Shown here: piece after piece, positions 42,713-45,280 of the stretch | How positions within the stretch are numbered: the first letter of the stretch is position 1 | Layout: every line of letters starts with the position of its first letter | Source: an uncultured Verrucomicrobia subdivision 3 bacterium | Lineage (GTDB): Bacteria; Verrucomicrobiota; Verrucomicrobiia; Limisphaerales; UBA11358 | Assembly: GCA_903850425.1 (NCBI GenBank) | Contig: CAINLR010000076.1 | Coordinates: forward strand, 1-52,070 | DNA: 52,070 bases | Direction: 5' to 3' | Program-made: the position numbers and the translations under genes | Notes under the pieces: generated by a model | What the model was told of the DNA's origin: nothing | What the model saw: only the letters and a program-made list of their open reading frames with translations | Database searches by the model: none

Positions 42713-43242
42713 GCGTTGGTTTTCAGGAGCGAATCCAGCCGCAGAATCAAATCGTCCTTCGCCACCAAACCGACGGACGTTCCCGCCGTTTTTCCGTGCT
42801 GGAGAAACACCAGCATCGGGATGCCTTCCACCTGAAATTTCTGCGCCAGCTTCGGCGATTCATCCACGTTGACTTTGACGAACTTGATCTTGCCCGCGTA
42901 TTGCTCCGCCAAGCTGTCCATCGTCGGCGCGAGTTGACGGCAAGGACCACACCACGTTGCGTAAAAATCCACGACGACCGGCAGCGCCGCCTGCGTCACT
43001 TCCGGGTCGAACTCGGCGTCGGTGATATGCTTCACATTCGCGGTGGACTGGTTCATTTCAACCGCGCCAACCCCGCGTCCAGACACGAAGTAAAACAACG
43101 CTGCCATCACCGCGCCATAGATTGCGCCGCGCCGCCAGTTCGCCGTCAACGGGCACGCCCCGGAACTGCATTTTCCAAAATAGCCGAGCGTCGCGCCCAC
43201 GCCGCCGCCAATCAGGAGGTAAATGAAAAGTGTTGTTGTCAT
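42688..43242 (-). CDS. DUF6132-thioredoxin fusion protein
   Basis: From the ATG at 43242 the protein has 184 residues. Residues 1-60 match the separate microprotein at 31618-31785: a glycine-rich helix, the shared CSSGACPLT core (CSSGAC at 25-30), IYGAV and a second helix. Residues 65-180 are a thioredoxin with ATWCGPC (C98, C101) and GIPMLVFL. The thioredoxin domain would be held at the membrane. The gene follows the C_GCAxxG_C_C gene by 31 bp and shares its ECF-type promoter element. Earlier in-frame starts overlap the upstream gene. Confidence 0.88.
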   Translation of the reverse strand: MTTTLFIYLLIGGGVGATLGYFGKCSSGACPLTANWRRGAIYGAVMAALFYFVSGRGVGAVEMNQSTANVKHITDAEFDPEVTQAALPVVVDFYATWCGPCRQLAPTMDSLAEQYAGKIKFVKVNVDESPKLAQKFQVEGIPMLVFLQHGKTAGTSVGLVAKDDLILRLDSLLKTNAQPAATGR

Positions 43243-43273
43243 TTTATGCCAGGGTTTCTGGAGTGAATCGTTC

Positions 43274-43615
43274 TTACTTGCGGCGGTCTTGCCCGGTTTG
43301 AAGCAGTTCCGTCGCCTGCACGACACAGGTTTCGCACGGATGCACTTTGGCCGCGCGCAATTCCTTGCAGTAGATCGAGCCGAGCCGCGCGGCGAAATTC
43401 TGCTTCAACGCCTCCGCCCGGTCGGGGGCAACCAGGCAAGCCGTGTGCAGCGCGCCGCAGAGTCCGCCCGGTGCCCGCCCGCCGCCAAACGGTTTCAGGT
43501 CGTCGAGCGCGATGGACGTGTCACCGGAAACTTCGCGCCAGGCATACAGCACAGCTTGGGCGCAGTTGAGACGTTCCGGCGGCTGCCGGAAAACTTTCAG
43601 GGCGTGTTCTTTCAT
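43274..43615 (-). CDS. C_GCAxxG_C_C family redox protein
   Basis: The 113-residue protein carries the family's cysteine pattern: LNCAQAVLYAW near residue 17, APGGLCGALHTACLV near 50, and a late HPCETCV pair near 92. The family is annotated as redox-active or metal-linked, of unknown reaction, and is found mainly in anaerobes. It has no signal peptide. It is the first gene of a unit with the DUF6132-thioredoxin fusion. The TGTAAC/GGCTC element ends nine bases before the ATG, implying a nearly leaderless mRNA. Confidence 0.85.
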   Translation of the reverse strand: MKEHALKVFRQPPERLNCAQAVLYAWREVSGDTSIALDDLKPFGGGRAPGGLCGALHTACLVAPDRAEALKQNFAARLGSIYCKELRAAKVHPCETCVVQATELLQTGQDRRK

Positions 43616-43624
43616 GCCAAGAAT

Positions 43625-43650
43625 GAGCCGCGAGCGAGGGAAAAGTTACA
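43625..43650 (-). promoter_or_regulatory. ECF-type promoter element B (redox protein-thioredoxin operon)
   Basis: On the minus strand TGTAAC (43650-43645) with following TTTTCCC and GGCTC (43629-43625) are 15 nt apart. The element lies nine bases before the start codon at 43615, so the predicted transcript has almost no leader. Confidence 0.7.
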
Positions 43651-43789
43651 AAGCCAGATGGATTTGCCCTGCCAGCGTGGCGGGAAGCCTCGTTATGCCT
43701 CGTGGTGCTGTGCTATTCGCCTTCGTGCTGATGGTGTTCGTTTGGGGCGAATGGGACTCCTATGAGTGCCACCCATTCTTCATAAACGG

Positions 43790-43827
43790 TTGACATGCCA
43801 AAGCCAGTTATGAACAATGGTTCATAA
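43790..43827 (+). promoter_or_regulatory. Promoter and palindromic operator of the DUF134 operon
   Basis: TTGACA (43790-43795) is followed after 17 bp by AACAAT (43813-43818) as a weak -10. Across the -10 lies a perfect palindrome, TTATGAAC-AATG-GTTCATAA (43808-43827). An operator overlapping the -10 suggests repression, probably by the downstream DUF134 protein itself. Confidence 0.6.
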
Positions 43828-43831
43828 CAAG

Positions 43832-43933
43832 CTGATCTATGGCCCGACCTGTCAACCGGCGTTCAATTGAAAAACCTCCCATCTGATCTATGGCCCGACC
43901 TGTCAACCGGCGTTCAATTGAAAAACCTCCCAT
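43832..43933 (+). repeat. 51-bp exact tandem duplication over the DUF134 start codon
   Basis: Bases 43832-43882 and 43883-43933 are identical. Each copy contains the ATG GCC CGA CCT start of the gene. The first copy opens a 15-codon frame from 43839 that stops at the TGA 43884-43886, four bases before the true ATG at 43890. The duplication therefore adds a short upstream reading frame. Confidence 0.9.
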
Positions 43934-44450
43934 CATGGAGGGGTTTAAGCCTTTTGGCATCCCGATGCGCGAGCTGGAATCGGTTATTTTGCTTTTCGAG
44001 GAGTATGAAGCCGTGCGCCTGGCGGACTATTTGGGTCTCTCCCATCAGAAGGCGGCCCGGCAGATGAACGTGTCCCGCCCCACCTTCACCCGCGTCTATG
44101 AAAAGGCCCGGCGAACTCTTTCAACGGCCCTGGTGGAGGGGAAAGCCCTTTTAATTGAAGGCGGCAATTACCAGACCAACGATTGTTGGAATCGGTGCGA
44201 ACGGTGTTCCAAACTCTTTGTCTGTTCCGATGAGAAGGCCGTGTGCCCGTTCTGTCACAAATCCTCCGTGCGGTGTTTGAATCCCGATCAAGCCGCGACC
44301 GAAACCAACGGTTTTTGTATTTGCACCCGATGCAACACCAAGGTTGCCCATGTGCGGGGTAAGCCTTGCCGGGAAAGTCAATGTCCATCCTGCGGGGCCA
44401 GAATGGTCCGCGAAAACTGTCCCTCAACAAAAACTAAAAACGAAAGCTGA
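43890..44450 (+). CDS. DUF134 family DNA-binding protein with zinc ribbon
   Basis: This 186-residue protein begins MARPVNRRSIEKPPI and continues FKPFGIPMRELESV, as DUF134 proteins do, which supports this start over ATG 43935. A sigma-4-like HTH follows (YLGLSHQKAARQMNVSRPTF) at about 47-70. The C-terminal half has four CxxC-type pairs (CERCSKLFVC, CPFC, CTRC, CPSC) likely to form zinc ribbons. DUF134 genes commonly neighbour NifX/NifB-domain genes, as here, and probably act as their regulator. No Shine-Dalgarno is visible; the duplicated leader frame could serve for reinitiation. Confidence 0.86.
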   Translation: MARPVNRRSIEKPPIMEGFKPFGIPMRELESVILLFEEYEAVRLADYLGLSHQKAARQMNVSRPTFTRVYEKARRTLSTALVEGKALLIEGGNYQTNDCWNRCERCSKLFVCSDEKAVCPFCHKSSVRCLNPDQAATETNGFCICTRCNTKVAHVRGKPCRESQCPSCGARMVRENCPSTKTKNES

Positions 44451-44453
44451 AAA

Positions 44454-44837
44454 ATGAGTATATTAATTGCGGTTCCCACCCGGTTCGACAACACCGTTGA
44501 TGACCATTTTGGTCATTGCCGGCAATACAGTCTGTTTACGGTCGGTGATCAAAACACTGTTCAGGAAGCCGGGATTCTGCCTTCGCTCCCAGGCTGCGGG
44601 TGCAAATCCAATATTGTGATGGTTTTGAAGGCCAAGGGCGTTTCTATTCTCTTGGCCGGCAACATGGGAGCCGGAGCGGTGAATGTTCTCCAACGTCAAG
44701 GGATTGAAGCCCACCGGGGCTGTTCCGGCGACGCCCGCAAAGTCGTCGAGACTTTTCTAACCGGCGAATGGAAAGACTCCGGCTTGACCTGTGCCGCGCA
44801 TCATCACGAGGATGGTCACCAATGCCCTTCTCAATGA
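44454..44837 (+). CDS. Dinitrogenase iron-molybdenum cofactor family protein (NifX/NifB C-terminal-like)
   Basis: The 127-residue protein matches the NifX/YbaP-like fold: DDHFGHCRQYSLFTVGD, then PGCGCKSNIV, and ILLAGNMGAGAVNVLQRQG. The C-terminal tail CAAHHHEDGHQC is rich in His and Cys. In organisms without nitrogenase such proteins may bind iron-sulfur or molybdenum-containing clusters. No nif genes are in the window. It starts three bases after the DUF134 stop, and its own stop overlaps the next ATG. Confidence 0.88.
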   Translation: MSILIAVPTRFDNTVDDHFGHCRQYSLFTVGDQNTVQEAGILPSLPGCGCKSNIVMVLKAKGVSILLAGNMGAGAVNVLQRQGIEAHRGCSGDARKVVETFLTGEWKDSGLTCAAHHHEDGHQCPSQ

Positions 44838-45280
44838 AGACAACACCGCTTGCGCCGGACCGCGCTCAAATCCATTTGGTCAATAACCAGACGGAGGCAC
44901 ATCCATTTTGTTTTGTGTGCAGCGGCTCCAACCCAATGGGGCTGGCACTGCGCTATGAACCACAGCCGGATGGCGGCGTGAGCGCGAAATTTTTAGGCCA
45001 CAGCGCGCTGGAAGGATATTCCGGCTTGCTGCATGGCGGCGTCATCGCGGCCATGCTCGACGGCGCGATGACCAACTGCCTGTTTGCGCGTGGCGTTCGC
45101 GGCCTCACGGCGGAATTGAAAGTGCGCTACCATCAAAGTGTCGCCGCATCCGAGGAAGTCTTTTTACAGGCATGGCTGGAGGATGACGCGCACGGCCTTT
45201 ACCAATTACGCGCCGAACTGAAACAGGGTGACACGGTCAAGGCCAGCGCCACCGGAAAATTTATGAAACAACATGAGTGA
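44834..45280 (+). CDS. PaaI family hotdog-fold thioesterase
   Basis: The ATG at 44834 overlaps the stop of the NifX-like gene (ATGA) and gives 148 residues; an in-frame ATG at 44822 is an alternative. The hotdog signature is clear: CFVCSGSNPMGLAL, GHSALEGYSGLLHGGVIAAM with LDGAMTN, and a final strand pattern. The family hydrolyses acyl-CoA thioesters. Its role in a NifX-type operon is unclear. It overlaps the next gene by eight bases. Confidence 0.86.
   Translation: MKTTPLAPDRAQIHLVNNQTEAHPFCFVCSGSNPMGLALRYEPQPDGGVSAKFLGHSALEGYSGLLHGGVIAAMLDGAMTNCLFARGVRGLTAELKVRYHQSVAASEEVFLQAWLEDDAHGLYQLRAELKQGDTVKASATGKFMKQHE

Follow-up and report, generated by a model that had tools for sequence, protein, structure and literature searches.

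The DUF134 gene and its duplicated start

Analysis of the window, that is, the whole stretch of 52,070 nucleotides of DNA, revealed a gene for a predicted DNA-binding regulator of the DUF134 family whose start codon lies in a tandem duplication. This gene is followed by a gene encoding a dinitrogenase FeMo-cofactor-type (NifX-like) protein. The features of the locus are as follows (window positions).

43790..43818, + strand: predicted sigma-70-type promoter TTGACA-17-AACAAT, agreeing with the consensus at 10 of 12 positions; the homologous loci L002 and L012 retain both TTGACA and its spacing to the ATG
43807..43828, no strand: perfect palindrome with 9-bp arms, GTTATGAAC-AATG-GTTCATAAC, predicted from its sequence and from related palindromes before some DUF134 genes to be an operator over the -10 box
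43832..43882, + strand: first 51-bp unit of the exact tandem duplication (copy 1)
43839-43841, + strand: ATG1, which opens a mini-ORF and is as far from the promoter as the ancestral start
43839..43886, + strand: 15-codon mini-ORF from copy 1, MARPVNRRSIEKPPI followed by a stop, assigned from the sequence and from the spacing in relatives
43883..43933, + strand: second 51-bp unit of the exact tandem duplication (copy 2)
43884-43886, + strand: TGA stop codon of the mini-ORF
43887..43889, + strand: TCT, the 3 nt that separate the stop of the mini-ORF from ATG2
43890-43892, + strand: ATG2, the start of the DUF134 gene, matching the starts of relatives
43890..44450, + strand: intact gene for a predicted DNA-binding regulator of 186 amino acids, DUF134 family (Pfam match, PF02001)
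43926..43941, no strand: small inverted repeat CCTCC-N6-GGAGG, with the 3' duplication breakpoint inside its loop
44454..44837, + strand: NifX-like protein gene (PF02579), 3 bp downstream of the DUF134 gene

With 76.5 bits, the match to PF02001 exceeded the curated Pfam cut-off of 27 and covered model positions 5-97 of 98, which places the protein in the DUF134 family. DUF134/UPF0251 is counted once in a table of PMC10434189 and once in a table of PMC5886521. The DUF134 gene and the NifX-like gene probably belong to the same operon, and a NifX-like gene likewise lies downstream of the DUF134 gene in L002. A search of positions 43000-45000 against Rfam at gathering thresholds found no known RNA elements.

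The exact 51-bp tandem duplication that doubles the start codon, which had been pointed out in a sequence-only reading of this DNA, was confirmed. The base C at 43934 extends the match to an exact run of 52, so that the whole array comprises 103 bp (43832-43934). An exact adjacent copy of 51 bp is far beyond chance, and no further exact repeat of at least 30 bp, direct or inverted, was found in the 52-kb window. Each copy consists of 7 bases 5' of the ATG, the first 14 codons, as that reading had counted them, and two more bases. The unit corresponds in length to 17 codons, is in frame and carries its own stop; ATG1 and ATG2 share one reading frame. The frame opened by ATG1 was correctly given as 15 codons ending in TGA, but its distance to the true start is three bases (TCT) instead of the four claimed.

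The same reading had also placed the ribosome region inside the duplicated unit. Each copy holds just 7 bases upstream of its ATG, and no Shine-Dalgarno (SD) motif was found before ATG1 or ATG2, so this part of the description does not hold. In the sampled part of the genome, an SD core was present upstream of 35 of 456 ORF starts, compared with a mean of 39.4 in shuffled sequences and 26 in the downstream control, and thus no enrichment was detected; the test covered ORFs of at least 300 codons whose starts were taken mechanically, which blunts it. In a 50-kb control from E. coli K-12, 7 of 21 starts had the core, compared with 3.2 in shuffles (largest value, 9) and 2 downstream, so that the control itself is weak. 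Duplication of an SD site was rejected as a description of the event, since the copies lack the motif and this crude genome-wide test gave no SD signal. The genome seems not to rely on SD sites, as judged from its sequence, and some Verrucomicrobia have been described as SD-scarce (PMC10783764).

Derived state and origin of the duplication

A scan of genome contigs for homologues yielded 12 homologous loci. The nearest (L002) belongs to an uncultured Verrucomicrobia subdivision 3 bacterium, apparently of the same genus, and encodes a protein with 92% identity. A single copy is present at the start of the gene in L002 and in L012, the contig of the latter being cut 96 bases into the gene. The distance from TTGACA to the ATG is 48 and 49 nt in L002 and L012, respectively; in the window it is 49 nt to ATG1 and 100 nt to ATG2. 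Since both relatives have one copy at the promoter-to-ATG distance of copy 1, the two-copy state is derived, and ATG1 occupies the ancestral start position. This comparison rests on few sequences: any protein match was obtained in 6 of 146 relatives, own genome included, and a strong DNA match in 2 of 49 family genomes, again with the own genome, while a third (G033) matched over 25 bases only. An order-level homologue with 63% identity (G143) lies on a contig that ends before the start of the gene. Among the 41 other DUF134 start regions scanned (29 Verrucomicrobiota loci and the 12 homologous loci), no tandem repeat with a period of 18-120 was found; the two-copy state thus occurs in one genome only among the loci scanned. 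The proposal of a recent duplication is borne out by this comparison insofar as the duplication is derived. The identity of the copies fits a recent event; slippage can also keep copies alike.

An assembly artefact had been offered as the alternative to a recent duplication. One true copy would then have been doubled in the assembly or in a read, for instance by the joining of two contigs over a 51-base k-mer or by a chimeric PCR product. The number 51 is odd, as is typical of k-mer settings; moreover, the assembly is a draft in 197 contigs, the doubling is confined to one genome, and the junction homology amounts to just 1 bp. The contig ends speak against this explanation. Comparison of 77 ends of 53 contigs gave 22 pairs that begin alike when read inward, and in every one the shared stretch was 139-141 bases long (15 pairs derive from one repeated element, which leaves 6 independent groups). 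End-to-end contig overlaps measured 141, 141, 140, 84 and 37 bases, that is, 140-141 in three of five. These overlaps indicate an assembly k near 141, longer than the 103-bp array and not 51. Such a value agrees with the default k series of MEGAHIT, in which, to our knowledge, 51 does not occur. With k above the repeat run of 52, assemblers of this kind need the junction to be present in the reads, and this would apply here to any k >52. The window contains no Ns. No second 51-bp doubling was found in the genome sample, which comprised 80 stretches and the window (1,206,116 bases, including 27,665 N, of 6,888,713). Concatenation at k = 51 was rejected on the basis of the 139-141-base contig overlaps and the lack of a sister doubling in the 1.2 Mb sampled. 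These results make an artefact unlikely; a read-level chimera, or a minority allele taken as the consensus, may still account for the doubling.

Besides the duplication, 21 tandem rows were present in the sample, all with periods of 12-21 except for a period of 42 inside the 21-bp array. The 21-bp array is located on contig C77 (L079, positions 243-418). The sequence of 139-141 bases shared between contig ends was found at the ends of contigs C1, C2, C3, C5, C6 and C196 (L054, L025, L026, L027, L063 and L103) of the own genome (G000) and also near the start of C74 and C120 (L077 and L039). This common sequence suggests that the assembly breaks at a multi-copy element.

Replication slippage is a general source of short tandem duplications in bacteria. 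The junction homology of the two copies is one base. The 3' breakpoint lies inside the loop of a 5-bp hairpin, a placement shared by 3.6% of window positions, and the 5' breakpoint lies at most 4 nt from the inverted repeat with 9-bp arms, which holds for 0.1% of window positions; these fractions belong to a test framed after the breakpoints were known, and an operator near the start codon is expected anyway. The placement fits hairpin-assisted slippage and is suggestive only. Replication slippage between these two hairpin-prone sites would have copied a stretch of 51 bp that takes in 7 bp ahead of the ATG as well as the first 14 codons. The array resembles slippage duplications known from bacteria in its exact head-to-tail copies, its 1-bp junction homology and its breakpoints at or near inverted repeats. 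It differs in that the start codon was hit, which produced an upstream mini-ORF instead of a frameshift.

Predicted translation from the two start codons

Taken together, we favor, with a probability of roughly 0.6, a genuine and recent slippage duplication in a single lineage, in which the mini-ORF at ATG1, followed by reinitiation at ATG2 and/or direct initiation there, lowers the production of the DUF134 protein, and which is near neutral. Ribosomes would still take ATG1, which lies as far from the promoter as the ancestral start did. Its translation would yield a useless 15-residue peptide ending at the TGA, after which ribosomes could reinitiate at ATG2, 3 nt past the stop, while some would begin directly at ATG2. 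The output of DUF134 protein per mRNA would probably be lowered and not abolished. With a unit that is in frame and brings its own stop, the gene stays intact at any copy number; the mutation is therefore tolerated and is probably close to neutral.

Termination-reinitiation is characterized by overlap or a very short distance between stop and start, and the distance of 3 nt found here makes reinitiation at ATG2, as suggested in the sequence-only reading, geometrically plausible. In three E. coli gene pairs, coupled reinitiation fell by 5, 20 and 70% when the gap was +2 nt, and an upstream-gene stretch of 15 nt was enough for it (PMC10666635). Of five E. coli pairs from which the SD site was removed, three lost 60-90% of their reinitiation and one lost it altogether (PMC6728339). 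Given this strong SD dependence, reinitiation without an SD site may be poor. The locus is like the gene pairs described in these two sources (PMC6728339 and PMC10666635) in that stop and start are a few nucleotides apart and the upstream frame is short. It differs from them in its gap of +3, where an overlap of -4 or -1 is usual, in an upstream frame that merely copies the gene's own start, in the lack of an SD site and in being known from sequence alone. Transcripts from the predicted promoter would reach ATG1 after a leader of about 13-14 nt. Folding around ATG1 and ATG2, calculated with an assumed transcript start, gave no clear preference.

A silent duplication, in which ribosomes start directly at ATG2 as they did at the ancestral start, ATG1 is mostly ignored and expression is unchanged, would be in keeping with a genome that apparently does not rely on SD sites and with the identical 7 nt that precede both ATGs. 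It is ATG1, however, that stands at the ancestral distance from the promoter, and ribosomes started at ATG1 would run past or cover ATG2, which lies 51 nt further on. This explanation has a low probability.

A comparably low probability is assigned to a selected tuning mutation, in which the new mini-ORF was favored because it resets the level of the DUF134 protein and its operon. The position on the start codon, the in-frame unit with its own stop and the 3-nt stop-start gap would suit such a role, as would a promoter with a probable operator. Against it stands the restriction of the two-copy state to one genome; neither the relatives nor the 41 other DUF134 start regions scanned showed a doubling. 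The suggestion of the sequence-only reading that the duplication tunes expression is not supported.

Readthrough of the TGA, which would give a regulator with a 17-residue N-terminal extension since both ATGs are in one frame, is hardly credible and was rejected because of the in-frame stop codon between them and the relatives with a readable start, which begin at the position of ATG2.

Candidate operator and expression of the probable operon

The consensus score of the predicted promoter is weak by itself and within the reach of chance, as shuffles of the region contain on average 0.7 such sites. The palindrome at 43807-43828 was compared with other DUF134 loci. By eye, a similar palindrome was seen before the DUF134 gene in L002, L004-L007, L009, L011 and L013, and an imperfect one in L008, L010 and L012; inspection upstream of the gene in L003 showed none. 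The palindrome regions of L004 and L006 are nearly identical in sequence. As these upstream regions come from a Bacteroidales MAG and from a MAG labelled as Alphaproteobacteria, the second label is doubtful.

A consensus, TTATGAACATATGTTCATAA, was taken from the loci inspected by eye and used to score 29 further Verrucomicrobiota loci, namely, the best-scoring 30 of 63 DUF134 matches less the window's own. Six of the 29 loci had a site before DUF134 at p<=0.01 and seven at p<0.05, leaving 22 of 29 without a site at that level; none of 28 downstream controls had one. The six loci with p<=0.01 include two from one genus and one whose site lies 167 bases before the match. Loci with a palindrome upstream of DUF134 are L115, L116, L124, L126, L131 and L137. 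A palindrome near TTATGNNCATATGNNCATAA before some DUF134 genes of Verrucomicrobiota and Bacteroidota is proposed as a candidate operator.

In the own genome, no exact ATGAACNNNNGTTCAT site was found other than the palindrome at 43807-43828. Sites with one mismatch numbered 16 more, compared with 1 for a backwards control pattern. Judged by exact sites, of which one was found, the idea that the palindrome marks a regulon in this genome was rejected.

An operator-like site over the promoter is a mark of autorepression, and the palindrome covers the predicted -10 box. From its position, the palindrome is probably an autorepression site in part of the DUF134 family. If the DUF134 protein represses its own operon, lower translation would lead to derepression, which would partly offset the loss of the protein and mildly raise the downstream NifX-like gene. 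The locus shares with other DUF134/UPF0251 regulators beside NifX-like proteins (PF02001 and PF02579) the domain, the neighboring gene and, with some of them, the upstream operator-like palindrome; it differs in the doubled start, found here only among the loci scanned. The duplicated start could further be viewed as a new-born leader ORF that cuts translation of an autorepressor and derepresses the operon, such that the NifX-like protein is made in excess over the regulator, and a single step, reversible by slippage, resets the set point. This view is doubtful.

Mutations of this class are ordinary; the place of this one is informative. By itself, the event adds another short tandem duplication to those known. 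Provided that it is real and expressed, it would be a clear natural example of how the start of a gene can give rise in one step to an upstream ORF, here in a bacterium without a detected SD signal. The titles and abstract openings among the literature matches listed contained nothing on a DUF134 operator and no bacterial start-codon tandem duplication with reinitiation. The palindrome before some DUF134 genes in two phyla offers a testable DNA site for a poorly described regulator family.

The DUF134 gene itself (43890-44450) is rare in the genus, with the own genome accounting for one of the two strong DNA matches in the family. Its homologues with 51-61% protein identity occur in genomes mostly labelled Bacteroidota. 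This distribution may point to horizontal transfer.
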